This document shows, piece by piece, positions 4,390 to 58,147 of a stretch of 64,000 bases of DNA; within the stretch, counting starts at the first letter, position 1; each line of letters opens with the position of its first letter. This stretch comes from Yersinia rochesterensis (GTDB taxonomy: Bacteria > Pseudomonadota > Gammaproteobacteria > Enterobacterales > Enterobacteriaceae), in the NCBI RefSeq assembly GCF_003600645.1, contig NZ_CP032482.1, positions 558,001 through 622,000 on the forward strand, in the 5' to 3' direction. The notes below the pieces were generated by a model, which saw only the letters and a program-made list of their open reading frames with translations, was not told the origin of the DNA and did no database searches. The position numbers and the translations under genes are program-made.

Positions 4390-4952
4390 ACTTTCCTTAT
4401 TTTTTATGATTTACATGATTAAAAATAAAGTGTCTTGGTTAATTTAATTAATTTATTCATTTTTAATGAATAGTTTCCTTACCTTTCAAAAAACAAGGTT
4501 ATTAAATTTATTGGTGCATTATCAATAAAGAGAACGCTGTTTCATTTCAGATGGATTTGAATTCTAGGGTAAAGTTTTAGGACTTTTGTGATCTAGATCG
4601 ATATTATAAATCATCTGTTAATAAATGATTTAAATTGTGATTGGCATCAAATTAAATCTCTATTTTAGACATTTTTTAGGCAATTTAAATAATTACACGG
4701 TTTTTTTGTTTTTTTAAATGAATATTATAACTTTATGTTTTTAAATGTTAATTTAACTTAATTGTTATTTTGTCTCATTTTTCAAGTGTGATCTTAAGCA
4801 TAAATTTTAAAATGGAATTAAGTTTTGTTTTTTATGGTGTAGTTTTTTGTTTTCCTCTGGGTTCTAATGTTGTCGAGTGTTTCGTGATTTTATTCTGTTA
4901 TTTAAACTTCTGGGTAAATTCATAAAAATTAGATTTCAACGAGGACGCTAAG
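4390..4952. promoter_or_regulatory. Divergent control region of the lyase/transporter locus
   Basis: This strongly AT-rich 563-bp region separates the leftward lyase pair from the rightward ABC-transporter operon and must carry both promoters. It holds a KdgR-like palindrome (4530-4544) and two CRP-like half-to-near sites, tgtgatctagatcgat (4587-4602) and tgtgattggcatcaaa (4636-4651). No coding sequence is evident. Confidence 0.6.
4530..4544. promoter_or_regulatory. Candidate KdgR-like operator
   Basis: gagaacgctgtttca matches the palindromic KdgR-type pattern TRAAAC-RNY-GTTTYA at all right-half positions and most left-half positions, with AT-rich flanks on both sides. KdgR represses uronate and pectin catabolism in enterobacteria, which fits a locus encoding polyuronate lyases. 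The consensus is from memory of the family, and no regulator gene is in the window. Confidence 0.4.
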
Positions 4953-39358: not shown

Positions 39359-40606
39359 ATGGCTCTGAGTGATGTGAAGGTTCGTACAGCCAAGCCTGAA
39401 GAAAAAGCCTATAAGCTTACCGATGGTGATGGCATGGTGTTGTTGGTTCACCCGAACGGTTCTAAATATTGGCGGCTGCGTTATCGCTTCGGCGGGAAAG
39501 AAAAGATGCTGGCATTGGGGAAATATCCTGAAGTGTCATTGGCTGATGCCAGGGCACGGCGTGAAGAAGCCCGCAAGCATTTAGCTAATGGTGTCGATCC
39601 CAGTGAGAATAAGAAAGCCGTTAAGGTAGAACAAGAGCAAGAAGCGATAACTTTTGAAGTGGTAGCTAGGGACTGGCACGCCAGCAATCAAAAGTGGTCT
39701 GAGTCGCACAGTGCTAGAGTGTTAAAAAGTCTGGAAGACAATTTATTTGCCGCAGTAGGGAAGCGAAATATAGTAGATATTGGTACTCGCGATTTACTGG
39801 TTCCAATTAAAGCTGTGGAGAAGTCAGGACGTCTTGAAGTAGCTGCGCGTCTTCAACAGCGGACAACGGCAATAATGCGCTTTGCGGTACAGAACGGTTT
39901 AATCGATTACAACCCCGCACAAGATATTGCTGGGGCGATAGCTACTGCTAAACGGCAGCATCGCGCTGCGCTAGACCTCAGTCGTATTCCTGAATTGCTT
40001 CATCGTATTGATACATATACTGGAAGACCATTAACTCGGCTGGCTGTGGAACTCACGCTGTTAGTTTTCATTCGTTCAAGCGAACTGCGTTTTGCGCGCT
40101 GGTCAGAAGTGGATTTTGAAACCGCTCTGTGGACGATTCCGGGAGAGCGTGAACCACTGGAAGGCGTTAAACACTCTCAGCGCGGTTCTAAGATGAAGAC
40201 TCCGCATCTTGTTCCCTTGTCGCGACAGGCTCTCGCCATTTTGGAAAAGATCAAAAGTATGAGTGGAAACCGAGAGCTGATTTTCGTTGGCGATCACGAT
40301 CCACGTAAGCCTATGAGTGAGAATACATTGAATAAAGCACTGAGGGTGATGGGTTACGACACTAAGGTTGAAGTATGTGGTCATGGTTTCAGAACCATGG
40401 CCTGTAGTTCACTGATTGAGTCAGGGTTGTGGTCGAGAGATGCGGTAGAGCGGCAGATGAGTCATCAAGAGCGTAGCTCTGTGCGGGCAGCTTACATTCA
40501 TAAGGCTGAGCATCTTGGGGAGCGTAGGTTGATGGTGCAATGGTGGGCAGATTTTCTTGACGCTAATCGTGATAAGGGGATTAGTCCGTTTGATTTTGCG
40601 AAGTAG
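39359..40606 (+). CDS. int: P4-type site-specific tyrosine integrase
   Basis: From ATG 39359 (AAAGGATACTCAAC upstream) the protein has 415 residues. An N-terminal DUF4102 arm-binding domain (MALSDVKVRTAKPEEKAYKL) precedes the phage-integrase catalytic domain with FIRSSELRFARW (catalytic Arg), KTPHLVPLS, HGFRTMA (His-x-x-Arg) and VRAAYIHKA (nucleophilic Tyr). All catalytic residues are present, so it is probably active. It integrates the island into leuX. The longer frame from 39323 lacks support. Confidence 0.93.
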   Translation: MALSDVKVRTAKPEEKAYKLTDGDGMVLLVHPNGSKYWRLRYRFGGKEKMLALGKYPEVSLADARARREEARKHLANGVDPSENKKAVKVEQEQEAITFEVVARDWHASNQKWSESHSARVLKSLEDNLFAAVGKRNIVDIGTRDLLVPIKAVEKSGRLEVAARLQQRTTAIMRFAVQNGLIDYNPAQDIAGAIATAKRQHRAALDLSRIPELLHRIDTYTGRPLTRLAVELTLLVFIRSSELRFARWSEVDFETALWTIPGEREPLEGVKHSQRGSKMKTPHLVPLSRQALAILEKIKSMSGNRELIFVGDHDPRKPMSENTLNKALRVMGYDTKVEVCGHGFRTMACSSLIESGLWSRDAVERQMSHQERSSVRAAYIHKAEHLGERRLMVQWWADFLDANRDKGISPFDFAK

Positions 40607-40897: not shown

Positions 40898-43800
40898 TTA
40901 ATTACTCAATGATTCGACAGGAACTACAACACCAAATTTTTCCAGCTTAAGGAATTTTGAACCCATAACTTGTGAAGGGATCTTGCGCTGAAGCAAACTA
41001 AAGAAGTTATCATCATGTGTTGAGATTATAATCTGCTTATTAAAACGAACAGAAATGCTTCGTAGGAGATCAATTGTGGCTAAGACATTAATTGAGTCCA
41101 TTGATTGTATCGGGTCATCAATCATAATGACATCTATTGGATCACCATTATCATCCTTGGCATGAAGTGCACTAGCCAAAAATACGCTTAAACTGAGAAT
41201 ATTCAACTGAGCAGCGCTGAAAAAAAGAATTGGCGACACAGTTTTCCCTTCCTCATCGCTGAGGACAATATTTAATCCAGGACGATCTGATGTCTCAAAA
41301 TCTGGACGGAACTCAACCTTTTTGAGGGATGGATGTGGATCGATTTTTCTGTAAATAGAATCAATAAGATCTTCATAGAAGAACTCTCTTATGAGCTTTC
41401 TAAGTTCATCAATAACATTTTCTCTCTCAGCCAACAGCACTTTATCAACTTGATTTCTCTGAGTTAAGCGTTTCTCCACGGTGGTAAGGTTTTCACGGAG
41501 CACTTGATTTGTTAAATACAACTCTGTTGCTTTCAATAGTTCTGATAACAGTTCAAATTTTTTCAGTTTGCTATCAATTCCTCGATATTCCAGTATCTGG
41601 AGATTAATGGTTTCGGTTATAGTATTTCCTATCTCATCGGCAGTCTTGCCATCCTGCGGGCCAATCATTTGATTTAAAGACGCAACGAAAGACTGTATAA
41701 ATGATTCATACTCAGCGATATGATTCTCTGCCTGCTTTTTCTCTGCGGATAATACCTCAATATCAGTCACAGTTTCGTTAGCAATCATAGTCTCTTTCAG
41801 GGATTTTGACTGCTCAGCAATTTTTTTTGCATCAGATAAATTTTCTTTTCTGCATTTTTCAATTGCCGCTCGCTTTTCGACGTAATATTTTTTAAATTCA
41901 TGTGGCTGCAAGCTATTTTCAATAAGGTAAACATTTACCTTTTGATAAGCTGATTTAGAGGAAGTGGTTTTAATTTGTAAATTGAGCATTTTAATCGATG
42001 ACTCAATCTGCGTTATGAGCAATTTTTTTTCATCAATATTTTGGCTTAACACTGTTTTACTATTAAGCAATTCTTCTTTCTTTAAAGTAAGATCTTTGAG
42101 TTCGGCTTCTGTCCGAGATATGAGTTCTTCTTTAGTAAGTTCCCAGACAGAAAGTTGAAGGGATTTGATTTGCAACTGCAGAGAGTTGACCTGTGCCTGA
42201 AGTAATGATTTTTGCTCTTCTAGTTTAGATACTTGCAAACCAAGGTCGTTAAGTTTAGTTCTTAGATCAGAAAGGCGATCCATCTGAATCCTAACGGCCT
42301 CTTGGACGATTGCATCCATCTTGGCTTTGAGTAAGCTTTGTCGTTTAGTGGAAGCATTGAGTTTTTCTGCATTCTCCTTACTTAGAATTGACAATAGTTC
42401 TGTATTCTTTACTTCTTTTTGGAGAGCCGACTCAGAATCATGCGGCTTGTTACATAAAGGGCAAATATTAGTGGGCCATATACTCAGATACTCTAGACCA
42501 GAGGTAACCAGACGTTCATGAAGTCCCATTTGTTCGGCTAAAGAAATTTGAGTTTTCTTAACAGATTGATCGTGCAGCAGTAACGCATTCAGTTCTTCAG
42601 AAATGTGTCCTAATTCATCCAGTTTAAGCTTATCAAAATTAATTGCGCTTAAATCAGAATTAAGCAATGATTCCGCATTAACCGTGAGGGAAGATATCGT
42701 TGTTAACTCAAGCTGAATATTATCTCGCAGATTCTTATTTAGAGCTAATGACAAATTTGTATTTACAACTTGAGCACTAAGTTTTTTTAGCCGTTCTTGT
42801 TGTACATTTATTTCAGAGTAAATAGAGGAACAATTATCTAACGCTGTACGTAGAAGCAATGAGCGATTATCAGCCTCGGTTAAGTCTGAATCAAGTTTGC
42901 TGAGTGACTGCTGAAGATCAACAAGTATGGTTGCTTCATAAGTGTGTTGCCTAGAAAGCGAGGAGCATTTTTCAGTGACATTTGTTATTTCTGATTGAGT
43001 ATCTAGAAAAATTTTTAAGTATTCAGCTACTTCATTTAGAGTTAGCAATTGCTGGCTTGCATACTGGTATTCGTTCTGAATAGTCGAGTATGAAGTTAAT
43101 AATGACTGATATCGTTCGGCCTCCTGCAATCCTTTACTAAATTTAAGCAGCTTGTGTTGTTGCTCCTTGATTAGGCTAAGATTAAGTTTTAATTCTGGCA
43201 ATTTAGAAAAATATTTAGTTAGTGATTCTCGCAAATTGATATTAGCAGAAGCTTGTTTTTTTAGTTCTTGAGTACGGGTTATGATGGCTGAAACCATGTC
43301 ATGTTGAGTATTTAATGAGAATTGATCATCCACCAAGATCAAATTTTCATCGTTTTTATTCAATTCAGACACAATTTTATTAAATTGTTCGAACATATAT
43401 ACATCAACTGGTTCCTGTAGTTGATCTAGAAGTTTGTTTCTCTCTTTTTCCAGATCAGCTAGTACAACCTTGTTATCATTAATTAAAACTGTTAACTCCT
43501 GACGGGCAATCTCGGCATCACACCCAAAGCTTTCCATGAAACTATTATATCGATCCTGCGGTTTAGCCTCCCTTAAAAATCGATCAATTTCATCTTGGCT
43601 TAGGATAATCTTTCTAAAGTATTCATTTTCTTTATTCTTATTTACACCGATTCTGATATCACTTGAATTTGAACGTGGCGCTCTAAGGTTTCGGTTGAAT
43701 GGTTTTGGGAGAGTGGTGGTAACTGTAACGCGTGTTGGTATACTGCTATCAACATCCTTATTGCGTAGGATTTTTTGAGCTATGCCTTTTTCTTTAGTAC

Positions 43801-44032
43801 TTTTAGCTGCGAGTTCATGATTTGAACGATTATAGTCACCACCAAGCCTTTCCAAATGATTCGTAATCGCCCATTCAACTGCATCATAAAAGGAGCTTTT
43901 TCCAAAACCATTAGGAGCATAAATTGCAACAAAGTTAGAAGGCATTTCATCATCGTTTGTAAAATCGAAAATTCCATCCTCCTTATATTTGTAGGCACGG
44001 AAACCTTCGATCTCAACTTTTTTTATTTTCAT
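40898..44032 (-). CDS. Rad50/SMC-like ABC ATPase with zinc hook (ABC-three-component-type)
   Basis: The 1044-residue protein has an N-terminal ATPase lobe with Walker A APNGFGKSS (39-47), long coiled coils (about 180-500 and 560-850), a central zinc hook CPLC near residue 523, and a C-terminal lobe with SAAQLNILSLSVFLAS (signature region), Walker B VIMIDDP (about 965-971) and H-loop IIISTHDD. The FSAAQ-type signature and operon partners match ABC-3C-type ATPases described by Aravind and colleagues. It probably senses or clamps DNA and controls the effectors encoded upstream. The start overlaps the preceding gene by 20 bp. The gene is AT-rich compared with the core genes. Confidence 0.82.
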   Translation of the reverse strand: MKIKKVEIEGFRAYKYKEDGIFDFTNDDEMPSNFVAIYAPNGFGKSSFYDAVEWAITNHLERLGGDYNRSNHELAAKSTKEKGIAQKILRNKDVDSSIPTRVTVTTTLPKPFNRNLRAPRSNSSDIRIGVNKNKENEYFRKIILSQDEIDRFLREAKPQDRYNSFMESFGCDAEIARQELTVLINDNKVVLADLEKERNKLLDQLQEPVDVYMFEQFNKIVSELNKNDENLILVDDQFSLNTQHDMVSAIITRTQELKKQASANINLRESLTKYFSKLPELKLNLSLIKEQQHKLLKFSKGLQEAERYQSLLTSYSTIQNEYQYASQQLLTLNEVAEYLKIFLDTQSEITNVTEKCSSLSRQHTYEATILVDLQQSLSKLDSDLTEADNRSLLLRTALDNCSSIYSEINVQQERLKKLSAQVVNTNLSLALNKNLRDNIQLELTTISSLTVNAESLLNSDLSAINFDKLKLDELGHISEELNALLLHDQSVKKTQISLAEQMGLHERLVTSGLEYLSIWPTNICPLCNKPHDSESALQKEVKNTELLSILSKENAEKLNASTKRQSLLKAKMDAIVQEAVRIQMDRLSDLRTKLNDLGLQVSKLEEQKSLLQAQVNSLQLQIKSLQLSVWELTKEELISRTEAELKDLTLKKEELLNSKTVLSQNIDEKKLLITQIESSIKMLNLQIKTTSSKSAYQKVNVYLIENSLQPHEFKKYYVEKRAAIEKCRKENLSDAKKIAEQSKSLKETMIANETVTDIEVLSAEKKQAENHIAEYESFIQSFVASLNQMIGPQDGKTADEIGNTITETINLQILEYRGIDSKLKKFELLSELLKATELYLTNQVLRENLTTVEKRLTQRNQVDKVLLAERENVIDELRKLIREFFYEDLIDSIYRKIDPHPSLKKVEFRPDFETSDRPGLNIVLSDEEGKTVSPILFFSAAQLNILSLSVFLASALHAKDDNGDPIDVIMIDDPIQSMDSINVLATIDLLRSISVRFNKQIIISTHDDNFFSLLQRKIPSQVMGSKFLKLEKFGVVVPVESLSN

Positions 44033-44564
44033 TTTGGCTCAGAAATTCAATTATGTTATCGATTCTTCGGGCTCGAGTCTCTCTTGATTCAAAAGTTGAA
44101 TCTAAAGGAGTACCTCGAACATAATCACCCAAAGATAAGGAAAACTCATCCTCTGTACCCTTGTTTCGTTCGGTAAGCTCCAGATCAGCACCTAACAAGT
44201 GGTTGTTTAGAAGAGTCAGGGATTCAGCATTAGGAAGAATGGTTCCAGTTCCATCGAGTACCAACTTTCTGACAGCATACTTATCATTTTCAATTTTATA
44301 TTTCTCCCATATTGGAAGCGTTTCTGTACAAAAAAATGCCAGGTAAATATTCCATAGCGCTATATCCCCCGGGGGCTGATAAAAAACAGATAAATAGTTT
44401 TGGATGGCACTCCAGTTGTCAACAACTTGGGAAGCACTTTCACACCAACATGCAACACAAGAGATATATGAACCTTCATCATTTGAAACAAAAAGCTGAA
44501 AGCTCATCTCTTTGAATTTTGTATGCAGGAAATTTAAGTCGTGTTCTTTATTTAATAAATGCAT
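44013..44564 (-). CDS. Small middle-component-type protein of the ATPase/protease operon
   Basis: From ATG 44564, with AAGGAG 7 bp upstream, the protein has 183 residues; the open frame upstream overlaps the protease gene out of frame and is not used. The position between a trypsin-like protease and an SMC-like ATPase, and the size, fit the middle component (MC) of ABC-three-component systems. I cannot assign a fold from sequence alone. No catalytic motif is evident. Its start overlaps the protease stop and its end overlaps the ATPase start, so all three are likely co-translated. Confidence 0.6.
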   Translation of the reverse strand: MHLLNKEHDLNFLHTKFKEMSFQLFVSNDEGSYISCVACWCESASQVVDNWSAIQNYLSVFYQPPGDIALWNIYLAFFCTETLPIWEKYKIENDKYAVRKLVLDGTGTILPNAESLTLLNNHLLGADLELTERNKGTEDEFSLSLGDYVRGTPLDSTFESRETRARRIDNIIEFLSQNENKKS

Positions 44565-45843
44565 TGAAGTACTCCTTAAACGCACGCAACTGAGCAATAC
44601 CAGGTTCGGTATTTGCAAAAAGTCTTTCATTACGTACGACGCATTGTTTACGAAGTCCCTCGAGGTGCGTCAATACAAAACTTTTGTACATCGCCCGTTC
44701 AACCTGATCGATAGGGGCAAGAGGTCCGGCTCCCGGAACCAGTGCGATATTTTGTATAACTCTGTCCACTTCAAATCCATCTGGCAATAAATCAGCTCCC
44801 TGTTCTGGAGAAGCAACAATCACAGTTCCGTCTTTATCAAGAAATTTTCTAGCGGCTTTTAGAATTATGTCTAGCTTACCAACCCAGTTAGAACCATCAT
44901 TTGTATATAGAATTCTTCGGCGTCGCTCTAATTCTTTAATATAGCGATAGTCAGTGGCGCTTACATTATCCAGAATTGCGCAAATTATCAAAAATTCGAA
45001 ATAAGCAACCCATAACCTTTTATCTTTTATATCAGCAGGCTGAAAAGGTCCGATTATTAAGTCGTCTTTATATTTTGTCATGAGCTCGAACGGAGGCGGT
45101 ATCCCTTGAGCGACAAGGCTATCAGCAAAGTTAAGTAACTCAGTCTTTAAACCAATAATAGTATTTTTATTAATAACATTAAAACTGAATATCTGTTCTC
45201 TCAGACGCGAAAAGCATTCCAAATAGGCTGGTATAATGGGAGCTTTGTTATTTGCCTCGATGATTTCTTCAAATCTCACTAGCCCTTGGCATTGAACACG
45301 GCCATATTGTTGATGCTTGTTGATACTATCCATACCAAATTCAACCCCCACCAAATAGGGACGTTCATTGGCTACATGATAAATACCACCACCAGACATA
45401 CCTTCAATTGCATCTTTCCCTGGTGTGCCACTGACTGTGAAGACAATCAAATGGTCCCTTACGCTTGTCATATGTCCGTCTTGGACTTTCATTGGGTCTG
45501 TACTTCCTCTCTCTGTTCCCGGAAAACCGACAAGCTTTAGAGGTGCCATATCAGGCAATGATGAGGCTGGGAATGATTGTTGTGCAACTGTTGGAATATA
45601 CTCAACCTGTATCACGGCACAGTCATATGTGTCTGAATGACTTTGATCGGTGTGATTCAGAACTGATAAAACCTTGAGCTCTCTACCTTGAACGTCTGTG
45701 ACGACAAGTTTAGCGTTGGCCTCTGTTAACACGTGCCTTGCCGTAAGAACGTAAGAATAATCCTGAGACATAGCATTGACCAGAACGCCGCTGCCCTTAT
45801 TTACAACGACGCAATAGGAAGCCATTAATTCTGATGCGGTCAT
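44548..45843 (-). CDS. Trypsin-like serine protease with C-terminal ABC-3C-type domain
   Basis: From ATG 45843 the product has 431 residues. The N-terminal trypsin-like fold has catalytic residues His37 in TARHVL, Asp74 in YDCAVI and Ser150 in GMSGGG, so it looks active. The C-terminal half (about 200-431) is helical, without known motif, and probably binds the ATPase or middle component. There is no signal peptide, so it acts in the cytoplasm, unusual for this fold outside defence. The ATG follows the MBL-gene stop by one base; an upstream TTG in the same frame (45867) is less likely. Confidence 0.82.
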   Translation of the reverse strand: MTASELMASYCVVVNKGSGVLVNAMSQDYSYVLTARHVLTEANAKLVVTDVQGRELKVLSVLNHTDQSHSDTYDCAVIQVEYIPTVAQQSFPASSLPDMAPLKLVGFPGTERGSTDPMKVQDGHMTSVRDHLIVFTVSGTPGKDAIEGMSGGGIYHVANERPYLVGVEFGMDSINKHQQYGRVQCQGLVRFEEIIEANNKAPIIPAYLECFSRLREQIFSFNVINKNTIIGLKTELLNFADSLVAQGIPPPFELMTKYKDDLIIGPFQPADIKDKRLWVAYFEFLIICAILDNVSATDYRYIKELERRRRILYTNDGSNWVGKLDIILKAARKFLDKDGTVIVASPEQGADLLPDGFEVDRVIQNIALVPGAGPLAPIDQVERAMYKSFVLTHLEGLRKQCVVRNERLFANTEPGIAQLRAFKEYFNAFIK

Positions 45844-45844
45844 T

Positions 45845-46897
45845 TTATAGCCTGATTTTTCCGTCAAGTGCTACGAGTCGTGAGGAATAGGTTTCGGTCT
45901 CATGTTCATGCAGTAATGGCGAAATAATTTCAGAGTAATTAAAGCATATATTCCCACTACCAGAGGCCAAAATTCGGGCGATAGTTCTTTTATTAGGTAG
46001 CCCGTGCATAGCTCCATTGGTAGATATAATGAACCGGTGTGTATTTATCAATGAAAGAAATTCTGAACTGGTATTGTATTGACTGCCATGATGAGAAATC
46101 TTTACAAAATCAAGCGGCAGTTTTCTCGTCTCACTATATCCAAGTGCCCGGAGACTACGCACAATAATTTTGTCATGAGCATCGCCGAGAAAAAGCATTC
46201 TTTTCCCCTCAGCTTCAAGAATGAAAGCAATAGAACTGCCATTGTAATCAGAAGGATCATTTTCAAATATATCATCAGCCAAAATTTCATCAAGGCTCAA
46301 GTCGTAATCAGTAGAATGCCCTGAGGTAGTAGTTGGCTCAGGGTCATCAGGCCACTTATGAAGAAGTTTCCTGAGTTTGTCTTCATCGGGAGATAATATA
46401 GTAAATGTGAAAGGACCTTTTATGATTTTTTGAGAAGCCATTACGACAGGTTGCCGCGCGCAACTGATTTCATTCAACAGTGTTTCCAGGTTTTTACCTT
46501 GCCTGACGCTCGTCAGGGGCGAATCGTCCCGGAGATGAATATCGTTGTCTGAAATTTCGGCAACATTGAAGTAGTCAGTAATGAACCGCGATGAATTGAA
46601 CCAGATTGACGACACCATTTCACTCAGATAGCCCGGTGTCTCAAATGCTCTTAACAGGCCGCCAATGTGGTCATCATCGATGTGAGTTAAAATCGCTAAA
46701 TCAATTTTTTGCCCTTTCTCCTTCAGTTCATCAAGCACACAGCGAAGAGCACCGCTATAACGACCTCTTTGGCCGAACTGAAAGGTAGCAGCGTTGCCTC
46801 CATCAATTAGTAAGTTCCATACGCCATTCAGACTTTCATGTGTTACTAGGATGCAGTCACCATGATTGGCTTGTAGAACTTGCACACTGATACCCAT
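45845..46897 (-). CDS. Metallo-beta-lactamase-fold hydrolase (ComEC/Rec2-like)
   Basis: From ATG 46897, with AAGGAG at good distance, the protein has 350 residues. It has the metal-binding motif THIDDDHIGG (71-80), a later metal Asp in LFLGDAHD and His in KISHHGS, typical of the ComEC/Rec2-related MBL group, which acts on nucleic acids or small phosphodiesters. No membrane span or signal peptide is seen. It is first in the four-gene operon. A nuclease effector role is inferred from family and context, not shown. Confidence 0.82.
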   Translation of the reverse strand: MGISVQVLQANHGDCILVTHESLNGVWNLLIDGGNAATFQFGQRGRYSGALRCVLDELKEKGQKIDLAILTHIDDDHIGGLLRAFETPGYLSEMVSSIWFNSSRFITDYFNVAEISDNDIHLRDDSPLTSVRQGKNLETLLNEISCARQPVVMASQKIIKGPFTFTILSPDEDKLRKLLHKWPDDPEPTTTSGHSTDYDLSLDEILADDIFENDPSDYNGSSIAFILEAEGKRMLFLGDAHDKIIVRSLRALGYSETRKLPLDFVKISHHGSQYNTSSEFLSLINTHRFIISTNGAMHGLPNKRTIARILASGSGNICFNYSEIISPLLHEHETETYSSRLVALDGKIRL

Positions 46898-47089
46898 TTG
46901 AACTCCTTGTGTAATATCCAGATATCCCCGAATGACCACATTTTCACAATGACTTTAACATACCAGTTGTGCTGTTTATATTCCAAACTCTTGATTGTTA
47001 GACTACAGAGAAATTTACGGAGCCAATAGTAAATAATTCATCTGGATCTTACATTTAGAGAGCTCTGTCACTGATCTGCTCCCCGTTGA
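46898..47089. promoter_or_regulatory. Promoter region of the MBL-protease-ATPase operon
   Basis: 192 bp between the ygjP-like gene end and the MBL start. It contains AT-rich stretches that could serve as a leftward promoter, for example near 46925-46990. No operator was recognised. Both modules read leftward, so read-through from hsd is also possible. Confidence 0.4.
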
Positions 47090-47803
47090 TCAATACCCCC
47101 AGTGATTATAAGCCAAGGGCATCTTATTCAACTTAGCTCTGTGTTCACGCCAGTTCGGTAGGTACATATTCATCAGGCCGATAAAACGCTCGTTATGTTT
47201 GCGTTCGTGTAGATGAACGAGTTCGTGAACCACAATGAATTCAAGGCATTCAGGAGGCTTTTTAACCAGTTCGAGATTGATCCAGACACGCGCAGACTGA
47301 GGGTTACAGCTACCCCACTTAGTCTTCATACGCTTGATACCAACGAAGCTCGCTTCAACCTTCATCTCGGGCTGCCATTTGGCAATCAACTTGGGCAGTC
47401 TATGTTTTAAAATACTGCGATACCATTGGTTGAGAACTGCTTCCCGTTGGGCTGTGTCGTAATGTGGAGGTACTTTCATGCGTATCCAACCGCCCTGAAG
47501 TTTCACTTCAGAGGACTTATCTACCAAAACTACATCCAGCCGATATCCTCTTCCCCAGAGGTAGTGGGTCTCTCCACTGCACATCTCTCGTTCACTTTGG
47601 CGAGGCTGAGCCTGAAATTGTGCCTGTTGCTGGCGGATCCACACAAGCCTTCTGACAACAGCCATTCTGATTGCGGTATCTGATAGCGATACGGGGGCCG
47701 ATACCCTTACTCGGCCATCCGGAGGTAGAACGCTGATATGCAGGTTTTTAATTTTTTTTCGCTGTAAATCCAAAGTGAGTTCACCAAAGGTAACCAATGG
47801 CAT
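47090..47803 (-). CDS. YgjP-type zinc metallopeptidase (M48-like, DUF45)
   Basis: The 237-residue protein has HELVH (193-197) with a third ligand His203 in ERKHNERF, and an N-terminal region KKIKNLHISVLPPDGRVRVSAPVSL typical of YgjP-like (PF01863) peptidases. Such proteins are frequently encoded beside hsdR, and may process or remove restriction complexes, though this has not been established. The start overlaps the hsdR stop by one base. Confidence 0.82.
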   Translation of the reverse strand: MPLVTFGELTLDLQRKKIKNLHISVLPPDGRVRVSAPVSLSDTAIRMAVVRRLVWIRQQQAQFQAQPRQSEREMCSGETHYLWGRGYRLDVVLVDKSSEVKLQGGWIRMKVPPHYDTAQREAVLNQWYRSILKHRLPKLIAKWQPEMKVEASFVGIKRMKTKWGSCNPQSARVWINLELVKKPPECLEFIVVHELVHLHERKHNERFIGLMNMYLPNWREHRAKLNKMPLAYNHWGY

Positions 47804-50800
47804 TAGCGGTACTCCTTCTGAGCTTTCACCAAGGCCATTACATCGGCGACTGTCACTGAATAACCTTTGAGCTCTTCCGCAATAGCGAAGCTGATCTCGC
47901 GCTCTTTAAAACGATCTCCATACCAGTCAGCTTTTTTTGTATGACGTACTGCAGTATCTATCTTTATTACTAACACTTCATCCTGCCCGAGGTTGTCATA
48001 CAACGCTTTCTTGGCGAGAGTATCAATGCTCACTGGATAATTATTTTTATTACCTGACTGTGGATGTTTCACCTGCTTCGCTAGTTCACGTACGTGCTCC
48101 AGATACTCTTGATAGGAGATAGCCTGTTGACGGCGAAGAGCGATCAGTTCATCAAGCAACACCGACATTTTTTCGTAGTATTTCGGGTTGACCGGATTTT
48201 CATCAACAATGGTTCTGCGAACGTTATTTTCAATCGCTTCAGCCATGGCCTCCTGATTGCCACGCATGTCGGCTGGAAGTCCATCCAGTGCATCTTCTCC
48301 GCGTTCAATAATCAACTCAAGCAGCCCTAGCTGCTCAAAGTCCATCAGCGTTTCACTAGGATCGGCATCTACCCAAAGATCTAGCATCTGCCGCATACCT
48401 GGCTCGAACTGCTTCATATCCACGAGATCGCCACTGGCTATTTTGATTTCATCGCGAACTTTCGAGTAAAACTCAACTTCGAGGCGGATTTTCTCTGCCT
48501 GCTGCTCACTATAGCCAGCATCTGTCAGTTCACCTGCCAGACCAGTAAAAGTGCGGATAAGCCTCGCCACAGATTGATAAAGTGTTAGTCGTAACGCTTC
48601 TTTCTCGGATATTTGTTCTACTACTGCACCGGGTTCACCACAGAAATAGTGCTGATAATCTAGCTGATGTCGTGGCATGCGAACTGGTTCGCAAAGAGTG
48701 CGAACTGCATCAAGCGCGCCATCTAAATCAATTTTGGCCTGTTGCAAACGATCTTTCAGTAACCCGGCTACATCTTCTTTGTCGTAGCCATCAAAAGCTT
48801 CTGCAGTGTAGTCCTGAACTGTTTTTTCAAGTGAACGGAAAAGATCTTTATAGTCGACAATATAACCGTATTCTTTGTCCTCCCCATCCAGTCGATTAAC
48901 CCGGCAGATCGCCTGGAAGAGGTTATGGTCAGCCATTTTTTTGTCGATATAAAGGTAAGTAGCAGAGGGGGCATCAAACCCCGTCAATAACTTATCAACG
49001 ACTATCAATAGGCGCATCTGGCCAGGTTCTTTGATAAAGCGTTGTTTGACCTCTTTTTCAAAATCACTCACGCGTTTAGCTGCCTCAGCCTCCGGTTGCT
49101 CAAAATACTCCGCAAGCATTTTTCGATAGATGTTGTACTTGGCTAGTTTCTCAGTCAGCCCTTCACCACTTTCCTCGCCTTTAATCTCACTGGCATTTGG
49201 CTGGTAGCTCGTCACAATCGCACATTTACCGGCAAAACCAGCTTCGCTAAACATCTCATAGCATTTGCAGGCCTGATAGACGCTGGAACAAACCAACATG
49301 GCGTTACCTCGGCCGTCGGCGAGTCGCGGTTTTTGTTCGAAATCGAGAAGGATGTCAGCCACAATCTGTTCCAGCCGCGAGCGACTCGACAACAATTTCT
49401 GCATCGAAGCCCATTTCTGCTTGAGTTGCTGTTGACCAAGGCGAGAAAGTTTAGATGTCTTAGCATCAAACCACTGGTCGACTTTTTTCTGAGATTTCAC
49501 TCGTTGATCGATGTCACGAGCCTCGTAGCGCAAATCCAGCACAACCCCATCATTCACTGCTTCGTCGAATTTATAAGTGTGAATATAGGGCCCGAAGATT
49601 TCGACTGACTTCTTCTTATCTTTCTTCATTAGTGGGGTGCCAGTGAAGCCGATAAACTGCGCATCTGGAAGTATGCTTTTCATTGCCGAATGCAATTTGC
49701 CGGACTGGGTTCTGTGGCACTCATCCACAAATACGAACAATTTTCCCTTCGGGCTAAAATCGGCAGGAATATTTCGTTTCATTTGTTCGATGAAATCGTC
49801 AGTGTCGGCCTCTATGTCATCCTCTTCGTGACGGCCAAATTTATGTACTAGCGAACATATAAGCCAGGGTTTGGTTTGATTAAGACGAGTTACCAAATCT
49901 GCTCCGCTTCGGGTGCGAAGGATTTCCTCTTCCACGCCGTTGAAGACTTTTTCGATTTGTTCATCTAGCTCTGTGCGGTCGGTTATGATCAGCACTCTAC
50001 TATCAGTGATATTTTCTCTGATCCATTTTGCCAGCCAAACCATAGTCAGACTTTTACCGCTGCCCTGTGTATGCCAGATGATCCCGCCTTCATTGCGCTG
50101 AATAAAAGGTTTCGTTGCAGCGACACCAAAGTATTGGTTATGGCGGCAGGTTTTTTTCACCCCAGCATCAAAGACGATAAAGTCGTGGATCAATTCCAGC
50201 AGGCGCTGTTTATTACATATCTGGGCCAGATGACGATCTAGCATGTTGGAATGGGGGGACTCAGCGGCTTCTTTCCATTGGAGATAATATTTCTCCGGCG
50301 TTTCGATTACGCCATAGCGAAGCCCTTCTAAATCATTACCGGCCATCACCAATTGGATAGTGGTGAAGAAGTTACGGATAAATGCTTTTTGCTGGTTATC
50401 GAGGTTTTGGCGTATACCTTCTGAAACTGAAACTGTAGAACGTTTCAGCTCAATCACACCAAGTGCAATGCCGTTAACATACAGAACCAGATCCGGGCGT
50501 TTCTTATTTTCGCCTTTGTGTGTCACTTCTTCAGCAATAGCAAAATCATTCGCTTCTGGATTTTTCCAGTCCACCAGCCAGATGGTCTGGTTCTGCTCGC
50601 CTGCACCTTCCTTATCCTTCACACCGTAGCGCAACAGGCGATAGACCTCCTTGTTGGCATCATAGAGGATACGGCCTTCACCGAGACTTGCGGCTCGGTC
50701 AAGTTGTCGCAATACACGGTCGATAAGCACTTCTGAAACGCCACATTTTGTTAGCCAGGCAGAGACTAAGCTAGGTTCGATGTTGCGGTTGTCTTCGCGT

Positions 50801-50898
50801 TTATGCCAGTTTCCCAGATAGCGATAACCTAAGTGCTCGGTGAATAGTTGGATAACACGTTTTTGTGTTATGCGTTCACGCTGGCCGACATTATTCAT
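47803..50898 (-). CDS. hsdR: Type I restriction enzyme R subunit (HsdR)
   Basis: The 1031-residue protein has an N-terminal PD-(D/E)xK nuclease (Asp136, Glu150, Lys152 in RPDLVLY...IELKR), then an SF2 translocase with Walker A TQGSGKS (277-283) and DECH (392-395), and a helical C-terminal domain that binds the methylase core. It cleaves unmodified DNA at a distance from the recognition site. The start overlaps the DUF262/DUF1524 gene by 4 bp. Confidence 0.94.
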
Positions 50899-52925
50899 AA
50901 CACCTCCTTAAATACGCTATCCATACCACCGGCACCGGTTAACACTGCCAGCATTTCCGCTTCGTGAGTGACGATTTCCTCCTCGCCCCACTGATTGTTC
51001 TTCTTCATCAGCTCGATCATTGCGAGCAATTTCAGGCTATCAATTTCATTACGTTCAAGGCTCGCTTCGAAATGCTCTTGCTTTTGTTTTGGCTGGAAGT
51101 TGCTAAGTCGTGAATTTTTGCTGTGGCTAATCAGACTGAGGTTGCCGAAGGTATGCAACGATGTATCTGGAAATGTCCTGTAGCCATCCATGGGGTGCTG
51201 AGGATAGAAATGCTCTACCGAACTTCGGAAGGTAAATTCAAAACGTTTGACTATCTCAGCTTTATTTCTGTCACGACACCAGAGTAAGTAGTCTAGGTAA
51301 TTGAATACCAAGTTGTTTGCTATCGTACCAAAGCGCATCTTCTTCTGAATCTGATCTGACAGTACAACAGGTTGGATATGTGACTCATTGCCGTAGATAA
51401 TCTCAAAATATGATTTTGGCGTTTCTTCTGCCAGGAAGTTCTGAAAGACAAATGCGGAGGCAAGATGCTCCAGATATTCGAGATATTCCCTTGCTTCGAT
51501 CTGGCTTACAGCGGAATGGGCATTAAACAGATAGAACAAAGCCCCATTCAACCAGTGTTTGTAAACCAGAGTAGGGGTTGAAACGTGGAATGCGGAAAGC
51601 AGCATCAAGATCTGTCGGTTGATGTCTACATAGCTACCATCATCTTCATTAAACGTATTGGTATAGCTGGTGCTCTTTTCCGAATACCAACGCAGGCGCT
51701 TAAGGCTCCACCCATCGCTACCTTTAGCGAATTCTCGTTTTATCACGAACTGATCAAAAAGATATTTGCATTTGAGAAGTGCAAAGGTGAAATTCTGTAC
51801 CGCTTTAACCGGGTCATTCTGCTTTAATAACCGAAGTTCGAACTGGTCGATTAATTGTTTGTCATCAAGCGGAACATCCACTCTGTCCTTTCCAGTTTGC
51901 CTACAGACACGCAACACATGGAGCAGGAAGTTGGAGAAATTGATAACACTATTAAAACGCTCTGAGCTACCTTCATCTTCTTCACCTCTATCACCACTTA
52001 TGGTTGAAGATGACTTGATAATGTCAGCCAGTGTGCGGTTTGTTTGGTTCTCTCTTGTGCCAAGCTCCGAAGCCGATGGGATAAGCATGTCAGCTAGAGA
52101 ATTAAAATCAGCAGGCACAAATTGCCCCCAATTTTCCTGCCCAAATAATTGATGACGTTCGGCTGGCGAAAAACCGTATTGGACATAACGTTCCATGTTG
52201 GAGCAAGCATCCCAAACTCGTGAGAGGGTGTTCAGGCTGCTCTGCCGATCTTGCTGGTCCGTTATCTCGTTGAGCACAGCCATCAGTCGCGCTTTCACCA
52301 CCTCATGTTTTTCAAGTTGCTCGCCTCGGTTGTTCATCACCTCAAAAAAATGATTGAGGTCGGTATCGGCAGGCACTTCTATTCGGGCAATTTGTACATA
52401 GTCGAATAGATAGGTACAAAAATGGTTTAATGGCTCTCCAACTAGCTTCAAGTCGCGCAGCACTTTGCCAATCAGCTCATAACCATTAATCAACCCTTCG
52501 TTAAACTCCTTGCTTCGAAGTTTATGTGGTTCGACGCCTTGCCAGAGGCGTGCAAAGGTCTCACTGGATTTTGGTCTACTCTCGAATCCCAGATTAATAC
52601 CCTGGTACCAGCTCATATCCAGCGTGGATCCCGCATGTTTTTTTAACCAGTTAGCAAGAAGGGATAGGGTCGTGAAACGCTGCTGGCCGTCGATTATCTC
52701 TGACTGCCCATCAGGGCGAGTGAACACGACCAACGTACCGATGTAGTAAGTTTGAGGGTATGGGCTATGCAGGCTTTTTTGCTGGTAGTCGAGTATGTCC
52801 TGTACAAGTTGAGTGATTTCACCCTCTCCCCAGGCATAATTACGCTGGTACATGGGGATAAGATAACGAGATGCATCACCCAGTAATGATCTGACCGTAA
52901 AGGATGTTACCTGTGCATCACTCAT
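50895..52925 (-). CDS. DUF262 + DUF1524 protein (GmrSD-like)
   Basis: The 676-residue protein has an N-terminal DUF262 domain with YQRNYAW (26-32) and the ParB/Srx-like nucleotide-binding motif DGQQR (79-83). The C-terminal DUF1524 His-Me finger region (571-612) has EHFYPQHP and [16 protein letters not shown], the HNH-type nuclease signature. In GmrSD enzymes DUF262 hydrolyses nucleotides and DUF1524 cuts glucosylated phage DNA. It overlaps the other DUF262 gene by 8 bp. Role in the hsd operon is unknown. Confidence 0.85.
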
Positions 52926-54351
52926 AGTAGTTCATCTCCTTGAACAGCCTCACCAGCTCATCTTGCTCATGGTTACCGGTACGGCGGTTATTATTATTTT
53001 CTGAAGCCCGAATTGTGAGTAGCGGCATAGATAGTACATCACTAGGTATTCTGGCTTCTTTGATTACCCGGAGCAGATTATTTTCCAGCACATACTTATC
53101 CATGGTTGCAAGTTGTACCACTTGCTGCCGAATTCGGCATCTGTAGGCCCAGATAAAGCTTTTTTCAATCGCTGCAGATAAGGACTGCCCACCAAATTTG
53201 TCGATATAAAAGATCAGAGCACAATCAAACATAGTGCGTATATATTGATCTCCTGTGCGATAGCGATTTCTATAGCTATTTAACGTTCTTAGTATCTGAC
53301 TTGCCATTTCACCAAGGATTACGCCCTGAATCATTAACGGCTTTTGAGTATGAGTGCTGACATGCTCACTGGCGATAATTGCCGATACCTGTTGCTGGTA
53401 GTGTTCTGCCATTTCGAAAAAGCGTCTTCCATTGATAATCATCTGATCGAGATGGAAAGGGAAACGCATTTTCTGGCCATCAATCTTGCGCTGGTACTGA
53501 TTGTTATAGTCATCCACAAAATGGTGAGCCATGCGCAAAGATTCCACATAAGGGAACTGGCCAATCTGGTCAATATTGATCCCTTTAAATAGGCCGACTT
53601 CATCCTTACCAAAGAAACGAGCGGAATTCCCCTGCGACCACTGACGTACCCTGTAGAGATAGGATGCGAAAAGATTAGCTAGGTCATCACTGGGCAATCC
53701 TTCCCAATGGGCAACGGATGCAGCTTTTAATTCTACCTCATGGCTAGCGAATTCACGTAGATGGAAGGCTTTAAGCAGATCGTGAGGATCCAGATCCCGT
53801 CCACGGGCATTTTGTGAGTCGAAGAACTGAAAGGCTTCAGACAGATCCGTCAGCACAAAGACCACCATCTGGCAGCGATTGAGAAGAAAATCAATATGCT
53901 GCTCGCTGAATTCTCGGTGGTTAACCCTGCGTTTTAGCTCCTGATAATTTTGGTACAGATTGTATTCCGACACTTGGCTAGCAAAGCGTTGCCGTACCAT
54001 AAAACCTTCAACGGAGGGCCTTAGCTGGGTTAGAGTTTCTTGCAAATCCTGACGTTCCAGCCCAGCAAGCCGGGTTTCGATAAGGGCCCATACGGCCAGT
54101 ATTAATGTCAGTGTTCGTTGCTGGCCATCGACGATATCAAGTCTGTTTTCTTCATCGCCCTCAGCTTGATGAAACACTACTGAGCCCAAGCGGTAGGCCG
54201 ATTTATCGAGATGACTGTTTATGTCCGCAAACAGTTCGCTGATATTTTTCACCGTCCATTTATAAGGGCGCTGATAGGCCGGAATTGTTACGTCAGTCAG
54301 GTTAAGAAGACCCTTGACCGACACAACTGTCTTATCAAGGGTATGTTTCAT
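52918..54351 (-). CDS. DUF262-domain protein without DUF1524 (GmrS-like)
   Basis: The 477-residue protein has [11 protein letters not shown] (23-33) and DGQQR (75-79), matching DUF262. The C-terminal half is helical and has no HNH signature, so it is probably a nucleotide-dependent partner of the nuclease-bearing DUF262 protein. It lies directly after hsdS with a 4-bp overlap. Confidence 0.83.
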
Positions 54352-55694
54352 GGCTGCTGATCCAATGGCAGACGAATACGCCCAGTCAGCAGTTGTTGCA
54401 TCATCCCTTGTTTTATATCGCGGACCTTGACTAGTTTTTGTTCCAATTTCGTGAGCTCCGCATCCATATCTGAGAGGATGTTGGCGATTGCGGTTTGTTC
54501 TTCATTTGTAGGTGGCATCAAGAATTTAAAACTTCTAATATCCTGAGGGCTTATATGGGGAATTGCTGTGACTGTTTTTACTGCGTCACAATGTTCAGTG
54601 AAAAATTGACTGCAAATCCATTCTTTTAAAAAAGCTTGATCAACGAAACTAGTTCTAACCCTAGCTACCCGCTGTAACAACACTGCAGGTAAATCGCTAT
54701 CGGATAATTGAGCAAAGCTTCTGCCGACTAATGAACCATCCATGGAAATAACTATATCTCCAGCATACAGCTCATATTGTTTAATGTCGGCACTGATCTC
54801 AGGCCAATACTGAGTAATACCATCACTCCAATCAGTGATCCCACGCTTAACATTTGATCCGCGAAGTAATCTAATACCAGAGTCAGAATATTTATTGCTG
54901 GAGAAAGGGAATCCTGTTAGTAAATCGCATACCTGACCAACACTCAAAACTTTCCAATCTTCCGGAATCGACCCCATTTCGCTGGCCTTATAGCTTATGC
55001 TAGTACCATCAGGAAATTTAGTAAATTGTGGGAGGCGAGTGCGACCAGTCAGCAACTGCCGCATGGCGGCGGTTTTAATAACCCTTTTTTTGGTGATTAA
55101 TTGTTCAAGTGCAGTAATTAGCTCGTCGGCATTGGAGAGCGCGTCTGCGATGGCTATTTGTTCTTTCTTTGTGGGACAAGGAATCAAATAAGGAGTTATA
55201 TGTTTATTATTTATTTGAGGGATCGAAGTTGTATCCGCTACAGAGTCAAGTCCCAAGTAACTGAGTTGATTATATAAATATAGATTATTTAGCTCTGAAT
55301 GACATGTAAGTGTCATCAGGTTTGTGTCCATATATGAATCTTGCTTCAATACTCTAATTTTATTAGAAAGTATTGATGCACCTCTTTTGGGAAATATTAC
55401 ACTTCCAGCCGGTATTGTTTTCGCTGTATGAATTAAGTACGGCGTTATAGCTGCATATACTCTGCCATTATTCAATTGTTCCACTTTAAAATATGGAATA
55501 CCTGTAGTATGAAATTTGTACTTTGACGGGCTATCACCACTGCAAATTTCTACCAGCGTTCCTAACTGTTTTACCTCCCAGTCATCAGGGATTACCCCAA
55601 CTTCCGTATGCTTATAGCCGACAGGAGTAGCTAACGGTGGCGCTTTTATCATCATCTCATTTAGCTGCTTGCTTTGCGCCGTCATAATGACCAC
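54348..55694 (-). CDS. hsdS: Type I restriction enzyme S subunit (HsdS)
   Basis: The 448-residue specificity protein has two target-recognition domains, beginning at GVIPDDWEVKQLGTL (about 32) and GSIPEDWKVLSVGQV (about 242), each followed by a conserved coiled-coil spacer (LEQLITKKRVIKTAAMRQLLTGRTRLP and LEQKLVKVRDIKQGMMQQLLTGRIRLP). It sets the bipartite DNA site. It overlaps hsdM by 13 bp. The DNA sites cannot be predicted. Confidence 0.93.
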   Translation of the reverse strand: MVIMTAQSKQLNEMMIKAPPLATPVGYKHTEVGVIPDDWEVKQLGTLVEICSGDSPSKYKFHTTGIPYFKVEQLNNGRVYAAITPYLIHTAKTIPAGSVIFPKRGASILSNKIRVLKQDSYMDTNLMTLTCHSELNNLYLYNQLSYLGLDSVADTTSIPQINNKHITPYLIPCPTKKEQIAIADALSNADELITALEQLITKKRVIKTAAMRQLLTGRTRLPQFTKFPDGTSISYKASEMGSIPEDWKVLSVGQVCDLLTGFPFSSNKYSDSGIRLLRGSNVKRGITDWSDGITQYWPEISADIKQYELYAGDIVISMDGSLVGRSFAQLSDSDLPAVLLQRVARVRTSFVDQAFLKEWICSQFFTEHCDAVKTVTAIPHISPQDIRSFKFLMPPTNEEQTAIANILSDMDAELTKLEQKLVKVRDIKQGMMQQLLTGRIRLPLDQQP

Positions 55695-58147
55695 TCCAGA
55701 CCCATTGCTTTTAGATATGAGGAGACTTTAGTTTCTAACTCATCCACATTTTGGGATATTTCCTTCAAGGTAGAGCAATAGCGTTCTTCCAGTTCTTTCA
55801 CGCGATCTGCCAACCGCTGCGTAACACGCTCAATCTCCGCGTCCAAGGCACTTGCCAGGCTGGCCTTCCATTTATCCTGTACCAGCAAAATTTTAATGTC
55901 GTTATCATTGAGCTTTGGATATTGAGCAAATACCGCAAGATCCAGTCGTTCCTGTGCTTCTTTATGCGCTTTTTTAGCTTTGATTTCAGCATCGAACAAC
56001 GTCTGAGTGGCTTTCAGCATCGCCTTTTCTTCTTTATCCGTGGCGACCTTAAGTCGTGCTTTAATACTGGCAGCGGTCACTTTTTCTTTGTCGTTCATTG
56101 CATCAGCAAGTAATCCATCTTCGCCGCTGTTCTCTTCAAGGAAGCTTTCCAGCGCTTGAACAGCTTCGTCATAAGCGACTTGTAGTTGATCGAGCTCTTG
56201 CTGCTCGGTAGCAAAATAGCGAGCGACTAAAAGGGCTGTCGGCAACAGTTCAGCCTTATACTTCTTCTTACCAATTATCAGATCCGGTGTTTCTTTTAGT
56301 TTTTCGCCTTTTTCCACAACCAGCTCACGTAGCACTTTGCCTGCCTGCCAGCCATCTTGACTCAGAACATAAACATCGTCCTGCATGACATCCATCCAGT
56401 AGTCCATCAGTAACTGATAGATGGCGTAGTTCTCAAGCAGAGGGACGTCAGCTGTGGCTTCAGAAGCATAGGCAGCGAGGAGACTCTCGCCAATCTCTTC
56501 AATAAGCTGTTTCGGCGAATCACCACGAGCAATTTCATCAAGTCGACATTCTGCAAACCAATTTTCAAAGGGTATTAGTGCTGCAGTTCTGAAGGCGGCA
56601 AATTCCGGATGCGCCAGAATAGTGCTCTTAACTTTACCTGCTTCGACCCGAGCATTGTTGTAGCCAGGCCGGGCGGGTTCGAACAGATCCTGACATAAAG
56701 TTGGGAAAATTTTCCAGTAAGCACTAAGAGCATCAATATCGCGATCAGGGATACCACCAGCCAAATGGCCAGAAAGGTCGTGCAGATCTTCCGGATCACT
56801 GCTGTCGATATAGCGAGGGATATTGAGGTTGTAGTCGTTGGCAGCAATTTCAGACAGCAGCACCTGGCGGCTGAAGCGGGGAATTTCCTGCTCCCGATTA
56901 AATGCATCGACAATTTTGTGGATATCTTGGGCACGTAGGCGGTTTTTATTACCATCCTTAATAAAGCCTTTACTGGCATCGATCATAAAGATGCCTTGTT
57001 GACTATCGCCATTAGCGTTGAACGCTCTGGTTTGTGCGCATTCTTTATCGATGACGATGATGCATGCCGGGATGCCCGTGCCGTAGAACAAGTTAGCAGG
57101 CAGGCCAATAATGCCTTTAATGTAGCCCTGCTTGAGTAGATTTTCACGAATACGTGCTTCAGCATTGCCACGGAACAGAACGCCGTGAGGTAAGATCACT
57201 GCCCCCTTTCCGGTGCTCTTGAGGCTTTTGATAATGTGCAGCAAGAAAGCATAGTCGCCGTTCTTTTCTGGCGGTGTCCCCCAGACAAAGCGGTCAAATG
57301 GATCGTTCGCAGTATCCAGCCCGCTGGTCCAGTTTTTGTTGGAGAAAGGGGGGTTGGCTACAGCAAAGTCGAAGGTTCTCAGATTGTCGTTGCCATCTTT
57401 CCAGTGTGGATCGGCCAGGGTGTTGCCTTTCCAGATTTTAGCGGTAGCGTTGTCATGCAGGATCATGTTCATGCGTGCCAGTGCGCTGGTCGCATAATCC
57501 ATCTCTTGGCCATAAATGGTCAGCCCCTTCGGGCCTGCTTCGTCACTAGCTTTTAACAATAGTGATCCTGAACCACAGGTCGGATCATAAACGGTAGCAT
57601 CTTGTGGTGTCTGTTTGCTGATGCCAATCACTTTCGCCAGAATGCGTGACACCTCTGCAGGGGTATAAAACTGCCCCTTGGATTTACCTGACTCCGTAGC
57701 AAAGTGGCGCATAAGATATTCGTACGCATCACCCAGCAAATCATCTCCTTCAACGCGGTTGGCAGAGAGATCCAACCCTTCGAAGATTGCCACCAGCTTG
57801 GAAAGGCGGTCGATCATTTCCTTGCCTTTACCCAGCTTGTCTTCATCATTGAAGTCAGCGATGTCAATAACGCCCTTCAGGTCATTAGCTTCAGCCAGTA
57901 ACCCGATAGTTTTGTTAATCTTCTCGCCAATTTCTTTATTGCCCTTGAGGGCCACCATATCGGCAAAACTCGCCCCTTCCGGAACTTCAATCATCGCGTA
58001 AGGGTTGCCTTTGGCTTTGTCAGAGACGTACTTCATAAACAGTAGAGTCAACACGTAGTCTTTGTACTGTGAAGCATCCATTCCGCCACGCAACTCGTCG
58101 CAGCTCGCCCAAAGGGAGGAGTAAAGTTCGTTCTTCTTGATAGCCAT
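55682..58147 (-). CDS. hsdM: Type I restriction enzyme M subunit (HsdM), long form
   Basis: The 821-residue N6-adenine methyltransferase has an HsdM N-terminal helical domain, SAM motif DPTCGSGSLL (188-197) and catalytic NPPF (265-268). Most HsdM are 490-550 residues; here residues about 500-821 form a long, charged, coiled-coil-rich extension. It protects host DNA and forms M2S with HsdS. It is the first gene of the operon. Confidence 0.93.
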   Translation of the reverse strand: MAIKKNELYSSLWASCDELRGGMDASQYKDYVLTLLFMKYVSDKAKGNPYAMIEVPEGASFADMVALKGNKEIGEKINKTIGLLAEANDLKGVIDIADFNDEDKLGKGKEMIDRLSKLVAIFEGLDLSANRVEGDDLLGDAYEYLMRHFATESGKSKGQFYTPAEVSRILAKVIGISKQTPQDATVYDPTCGSGSLLLKASDEAGPKGLTIYGQEMDYATSALARMNMILHDNATAKIWKGNTLADPHWKDGNDNLRTFDFAVANPPFSNKNWTSGLDTANDPFDRFVWGTPPEKNGDYAFLLHIIKSLKSTGKGAVILPHGVLFRGNAEARIRENLLKQGYIKGIIGLPANLFYGTGIPACIIVIDKECAQTRAFNANGDSQQGIFMIDASKGFIKDGNKNRLRAQDIHKIVDAFNREQEIPRFSRQVLLSEIAANDYNLNIPRYIDSSDPEDLHDLSGHLAGGIPDRDIDALSAYWKIFPTLCQDLFEPARPGYNNARVEAGKVKSTILAHPEFAAFRTAALIPFENWFAECRLDEIARGDSPKQLIEEIGESLLAAYASEATADVPLLENYAIYQLLMDYWMDVMQDDVYVLSQDGWQAGKVLRELVVEKGEKLKETPDLIIGKKKYKAELLPTALLVARYFATEQQELDQLQVAYDEAVQALESFLEENSGEDGLLADAMNDKEKVTAASIKARLKVATDKEEKAMLKATQTLFDAEIKAKKAHKEAQERLDLAVFAQYPKLNDNDIKILLVQDKWKASLASALDAEIERVTQRLADRVKELEERYCSTLKEISQNVDELETKVSSYLKAMGLEWSL

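Follow-up and report, generated by a model that had tools for sequence, protein, structure and literature searches.

The window, a 64,000-nucleotide stretch of the Yersinia rochesterensis genome (contig NZ_CP032482.1, positions 558,001 to 622,000), carries a four-gene operon that we identify from its sequence as a Lamassu, or ABC-three-component (ABC-3C), system of the hydrolase-protease subtype. Its mode of action is probably that of a metallo-beta-lactamase (MBL) nuclease that would be kept shut until a trypsin-like protease of the same operon cuts it. Our computations place the operon in this family and show that it is conserved, that its catalytic sites are intact, that the model of the MBL protein has two low-confidence loops with a residue matched between them, and that a protease residue covaries with this residue. 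The genes form a tight operon on the minus strand (46897..40898) in the order MBL, protease, middle component and ATPase:

45845..46897, minus strand: lmuA-hydrolase, an MBL-fold protein of 350 residues and predicted gated pro-nuclease (ATG at 46897; PADLOC PDLC03854 LmuA, 1.1e-123)
44548..45843, minus strand: lmuA-protease, 431 residues, a trypsin-like domain followed by the ABC-3C domain CTD4 (ATG start; PADLOC PDLC03855 LmuA, 2e-125; Pfam Trypsin_2, 3e-08, and CTD4, 8.8e-47)
44013..44564, minus strand: lmuC, middle component 1, 183 residues (PADLOC PDLC03873 LmuC, 2e-47; Pfam MComp1, 5.7e-11)
40898..44032, minus strand: lmuB, a zinc-hook ATPase of 1044 residues resembling structural maintenance of chromosomes (SMC) proteins and Rad50 (PADLOC PDLC03865, 1.7e-278 over residues 1-1039; Pfam AAA_23, 5.7e-13)

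A single base separates the MBL and protease genes, while the protease and middle genes overlap by 17 bases and the middle and ATPase genes by 20; alternative starts upstream would add 14 residues to the MBL protein (GTG at 46939) and eight to the protease (TTG at 45867). The earlier note on this DNA, made from the letters alone, had described four leftward genes with these coordinates and motifs, and both the open reading frames and a direct reading of the translations agree with it. The MBL protein contains H72-I-D-D-D-H77, D239 and H269-H270; the protease has the triad His37, Asp74 and Ser150 (numbered from the ATG), intact as the note had said; and the ATPase contains APNGFGKS (39-46), CPLC (524-527) and IDDP (971-974). 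A check proposed in the note was whether these sites are degenerate in relatives, and they are not. The metal motif is invariant in 11 of 11 aligned MBL proteins and the triad in 11 of 11 aligned proteases; in all 13 aligned ATPases this is also true of G42, G44 and K45 (Walker A), C524 and C527 (zinc hook), and D972 and D973 (Walker B). Such invariance indicates that the motifs are not due to chance. A promoter scan returned 9 sites, fewer than in shuffled sequence (19.3).

Assignment to Lamassu is based on the PADLOC models, which name the products LmuA, LmuA, LmuC and LmuB over nearly their full lengths, and on Pfam, which adds the ABC-3C domains CTD4 and MComp1. The operon has an SMC/Rad50-like LmuB, an LmuA in which an N-terminal effector domain (trypsin) is joined to a C-terminal docking domain, a part of LmuA that varies (here CTD4), and the LmuC middle component that is missing from some systems (PDLC03873, MComp1), and an additional MBL hydrolase gene adjoins the trypsin-LmuA gene, as in the hydrolase-protease subtype. 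ABC-3C systems are counted within the Lamassu superfamily (PMC10586767), and of eight annotated relatives that share the gene order, seven are labelled 'ABC-three component system' in their records and one 'hypothetical'. The suggestion of an ABC-three-component-type conflict operon in the earlier note was thus borne out. Its description of the system as little described does not hold: PADLOC Lamassu models match all four genes, for which reason we rejected an undescribed system, and PMC12447246 uses 'Lamassu-Hydrolase_Protease' as the name of a subtype. The system as such is known under this name; the switch at Thr residues described below is our new inference from the sequences.

Two other families with a similar gene pair were considered and are excluded because their core genes are missing. 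AVAST type I was rejected for lack of an ATPase of the STAND class (signal transduction ATPases with numerous domains) and because the protease gene encodes 431 residues and ends in CTD4; an Avs1b protein with the STAND ATPase fused behind the protease (locus L096) has 1916 residues, and the window MBL protein scores 194.6 bits against the Avs1a model, for which the cut-off is 420. Hachiman, with HamA (DUF1837) behind the protease and a HamB helicase, was rejected since the window protease has no HamA match at an E value of 0.1; loci L082 and L083 do match HamA models.

The likeness to these systems lies in the pair of MBL and protease, and in seeing an AVAST-like pair the earlier note was right. 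In Hachiman (HamM-HamA) and AVAST type I (Avs1a-Avs1b), as in the window, a ComEC-like MBL gene immediately precedes a gene whose product starts with a trypsin-like domain, and the MBL model has two low-confidence loops. As Tuck et al. 2025 (PMC12799240) showed, two disordered insertions keep the MBL protein of both systems gated as a pro-nuclease. The trypsin-like partner cleaves each insertion behind a single Ile (I118 and I218 in PflHamM, with cleavage at I134 observed for EpiAvs1a), and cleavage frees a DNA-specific DNase, HamM degrading double-stranded and single-stranded DNA and not RNA. Changes of Ile in HamM and Avs1a abolished or weakened defence. Lamassu is put into the same model by homology in a figure legend of that paper, which also cites oligomerisation as a Lamassu trigger from structure papers. 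The window differs from the Hachiman and AVAST pairs in that its predicted cut sites are Thr, not Ile, its protease carries Glu168 and Gly152, and its sensor is SMC-like, whereas theirs is a helicase or a STAND ATPase. Our literature search found no report of cleavage in a Lamassu system or after Thr; among the matches listed only PMC12799240 bears on a published test of protease-gated Lamassu, and the word 'threonine' has no occurrence in its main text.

The earlier note had read the operon as having two potential effectors, in which case the protease would attack phage or host proteins and the MBL nuclease would act alone. Both enzymes do have intact catalytic sites, and the N-terminal domain of LmuA is usually regarded as the effector itself (PMC10586767), but the same pair acts in series in Hachiman and AVAST, HamAB left other tested proteins uncut (PMC12799240), and in the window MBL protein matched sites lie in two low-confidence loops. 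We regard two independent effectors as distinctly improbable, and less likely than one nuclease activated by the protease.

The fold of the MBL protein is consistent with such a nuclease. ComEC is its best fold match, in agreement with a ComEC-like MBL fold, and at 1e-5 ComEC and another competence protein are its only matches among PDB sequences. An MBL protein that is gated and hydrolyses something other than DNA, whether RNA, a nucleotide signal or a lipid phosphodiester, is very improbable given these matches and the action of the sister enzyme HamM on DNA and not on RNA (PMC12799240). In the structural model, built on a thin alignment of eight sequences, two stretches are the only ones of at least three residues in which the predicted local distance difference test (pLDDT) falls below 50:

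46493..46558, minus strand: predicted gating loop 1, MBL residues 114-135, with the T129 codon at 46513..46511 (pLDDT below 50; conservation of T129)
46316..46345, minus strand: predicted gating loop 2, MBL residues 185-194, with the T191 codon at 46327..46325 (pLDDT below 50; conservation of T191)

The mapped cut of EpiAvs1a falls in register with loop 1, and T129 and T191 sit at the Ile register of the sister systems. Thr occupies both positions in 10 of 11 aligned Lamassu MBL proteins and Met both in the eleventh, from Priestia; this alignment was made without L006 (99% identical to the window), L106 (the same protein as L093) and the divergent L090. The MBL protein of an Enterococcus locus (L113) has Ile in both loops. 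Altogether, the two loops carry the same residue in 12 of 13 distinct Lamassu MBL proteins (10 Thr, one Met and one Ile), with one exception. Loop pairs of other trypsin-linked MBL proteins often agree as well (KIS/KIS, KAS/KAS, LVT/LVS, EVR/EVK and KSS/KSS).

A residue of the protease was found to vary with the loops:

45340..45342, minus strand: protease Glu168, candidate specificity residue of the S1 pocket (alignment; column scan)

Glu168 is present in all six Thr-type representatives and in none of the 23 others (n=29, without L108, which is redundant with L068; Fisher test, 2e-6), the column holding Phe in the Met-type protease, Tyr in L082 and Ile, Leu or Val in the rest. The column was spotted by eye in the alignment before all protease columns were scanned; in that scan only residues 152 and 168 separate the six Thr-type rows from the 20 Ile/Val/Ala-type rows, and the Thr-type protease of the window carries Gly152 together with Glu168. 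In two of these 20 rows (L115 and L124) a poorly excised domain had upset the alignment, and their residues were taken from the full sequences. Residue 168 presumably corresponds to about chymotrypsin position 213, on a strand that we take to be the wall of the S1 pocket. Outside Lamassu, a contig of a viral collection (L107:6935-11921) has an MBL gene beside a trypsin fusion of 1308 residues with a weak PD-Lambda-4_A match behind the protease and with no CTD4, middle component or LmuB detected; because its loops read KTS and KTT and it has Glu at the 168 column, it is apparently a second, non-Lamassu Thr-type pair.

Several observations weigh against Thr cut sites and a matched pocket. The ten Thr cases in the alignment are not ten independent ones, because it holds the close relatives L078, L101 and L102, and the divergent four-gene Lamassu locus L090 (8410-14068) breaks the rule: its MBL loops are short, the site in loop 1 holds Cys, and loop 2 lacks a corresponding site. 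Our first test of loop matching was loose, with 12.6 of 23 matches expected by chance, and by the same criterion representatives without a trypsin neighbour match in eight of nine cases (7.4 expected). From the controls of a separate tripeptide test L088 was left out, since it has QIS in both loops and a protease that we did not identify. In several rows of that test, among them the three Avs representatives, L093 and L104, the top-scoring tripeptide of loop 2 lies off the predicted site. On the MBL tree the Thr trait and the Glu168 trait each change about twice, with one independent pair only on supported branches, so independent evidence for covariation is thin; this tree of 34 rows was made without L006 and L106 and predates L113, L115, L121, L123 and L124, and residue states for it and for the column table were entered by hand. 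The loop residues could instead be conserved for structure or regulation, with the cut elsewhere, for example next to the Ile or Val at 131 in loop 1: Ile or Val stands two residues past the predicted loop-1 site in 10 of the 11 aligned MBL proteins (Ala in one), and the sites mapped in the sister systems are Ile. We consider this unlikely, although it overlaps in part, as does the non-DNA substrate, with the reading of Thr as the cut site, and we lean towards cuts exactly after T129 and T191.

Tentatively, and with slightly more doubt than confidence, we propose that trypsin-gated pro-nucleases use lineage-specific codes, in which one cleavage residue (Ile, Val, Thr or Met, and perhaps also Ala or Ser) would recur in both loops and the S1 pocket would vary with it (Ile, Leu or Val where the sites are aliphatic, Glu168 together with Gly152 where they are Thr, and Phe where they are Met). 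The Thr code would then be that of most sampled Lamassu hydrolase-protease systems (10 of 13), including the window, against Ile or Val in the sister systems, and it could stop co-resident defence systems from triggering each other. One genome (G033) holds two different MBL-trypsin pairs, with Val-type and Ile-type loops (L085 and L089), and offers a natural test of cross-talk. A further pair, on a Shewanella baltica plasmid (L124:1353-6005), consists of an MBL gene, a gene for a 374-residue trypsin protein and hypothetical genes at 3520-3960 and 3960-6005; its loops read LVS and LVT, and profiles found no CTD4, middle component or LmuB in this operon.

In the mechanism that we favour, the operon would be an anti-phage or anti-plasmid system in which LmuB, with its zinc hook, and LmuC detect abnormal DNA of an invader, such as free ends or hairpins; ends and hairpins have been proposed as triggers for other Lamassu systems (PMC12904381). 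The trypsin-CTD4 protein would be kept inactive, tethered through CTD4 to LmuB and LmuC, and on sensing would be freed or oligomerised. It would then cut the MBL protein in its two disordered loops, by our prediction after T129 and T191, exposing the active site of a ComEC-like DNase that would degrade DNA and end the infection by cell death or arrest. From the sister systems we infer activation by proteolysis, the DNase activity, the sensing of DNA and the death of the cell. Through concrete, testable residues, this would add a third defence system to the two in which the mechanism has been shown, and it suggests that the pair of protease and nuclease evolves as a matched code. If this is true, one could read from sequence where unstudied systems are cleaved, and predict cross-activation of defence systems within one cell.

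The Lamassu core of the operon has features of its own. Its ATPase has 1044 residues, whereas LmuB is usually quoted at about 650, and the Walker B motif of LmuB proteins of the window type is Asp-Asp (D972-D973), in contrast to the general change of Glu to Gln given in PMC10586767; LmuB of the window may therefore keep ATP hydrolysis. With DdmABC of V. cholerae the operon shares the LmuA-LmuC-LmuB logic of an SMC-like sensor, a middle component and an effector with a C-terminal docking domain, but the effector of DdmABC is the Cap4 nuclease domain of LmuA (PMC10586767) and, to judge from its three-gene composition, DdmABC has no MBL or protease gene. Against solved structures, the LmuB profile matched Rad50 alone at 1e-5 and no Lamassu, although solved Lamassu structures may still exist, and a profile of trypsin-CTD4 proteins matched only relatives of the trypsin part among the matches listed. 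The AlphaFold model of the protease, built on four sequences with a mean pLDDT of 51, can serve at best for its trypsin domain and hardly addresses CTD4; the 50 Foldseek matches listed for it are consistent with a trypsin fold.

Whether the four genes stay together in other genomes had been named as a check in the earlier note, and the order MBL, protease, middle component and ATPase recurs in 13 further loci (L006, L078, L079, L090, L092, L093, L094, L095, L101-L104 and L113), from surveys of 38, 5, 7 and 14 sources in four rounds, most of the remaining sources carrying other MBL systems. Hosts of these loci are Enterobacterales including E. coli, Shewanella, one more genome of the same class, and two Bacillota (Priestia and Enterococcus). 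Rahnella ecdela has a 13.8-kb stretch, operon included, with 96.3% identity to that of the window. A cassette that is decayed or silent would find parallels among such relatives, where the frame is broken in two of the 13 loci (the protease in L006 of R. ecdela, the middle gene in L079) and L097 has lost the MBL gene and retains only the tail of the protease; a further decayed relative, L106 from a viral-collection contig, has LmuB detected as a fragment only. In the window, however, none of the four frames is interrupted and no catalytic residue is missing, which makes decay extremely improbable.

The system is rare. No close copy was found by megablast in 20,395 E. coli records, and a 'distant' search with the MBL-protease pair gave matches of about 65-69% DNA identity in 12 of 5426 complete E. 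coli genomes, nine covering at least 80% of the query; three of these 12 loci were opened. For E. coli strain 2018-06-4CC (matches H40 and H41), the match listing alone places an IS30-like element (ISApl1) between or inside the MBL and protease genes. Among 72,556 plasmid records the MBL was matched in 68 and the protease in four. A scan for LmuB at 1e-30 found none in 24 other genomes of the genus of the host, and the system is therefore accessory in the genus.

Two features downstream of the operon bear on how it may have entered the genome:

39076..39160, plus strand: tRNA-Leu (CAA), probable integration site of the island (ARAGORN; the integrase starts about 200 bases downstream)
39359..40606, plus strand: tyrosine integrase of the island, a neighbour outside the defence machine (Pfam Arm-DNA-bind_3, Phage_int_M and Phage_integrase)

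The tRNA gene and the integrase probably mark the entry site of an island, and the operon looks like part of a genomic island starting at tRNA-Leu(CAA); an 18-base stretch at the 3' end of the tRNA gene has no second exact copy in the genome. Upstream of the operon (47090-58147) lies a type I restriction-modification set of HsdM, HsdS and HsdR, with two GmrSD_N genes between HsdS and HsdR, one with DUF7834 and one with GmrSD_C. HsdR is separated from the Lamassu operon by a gene for a YgjP-like metallopeptidase. Together, the operon and this restriction-modification neighbourhood are a defence island.

Related MBL proteins also adjoin proteases of other classes. Canu caspase-nuclease loci have this arrangement in common with the window, with a caspase in place of trypsin and with Gly reported at the Canu sites (PMC12799240). 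In five caspase-linked relatives (L116, L117, L118, L122 and L126), loop 1 has an F-G or Y-G step in all five and loop 2 in three, with F-A in the other two; the F-G and Y-G steps agree with the Gly reported for Canu. On plasmids of Miltoncostaea (L119:2802-5625) and Paroceanicella (L125:2350-5649), related MBL genes lie directly downstream of genes for S8 subtilisin-like peptidases, and their products are possibly subtilase-gated nucleases.

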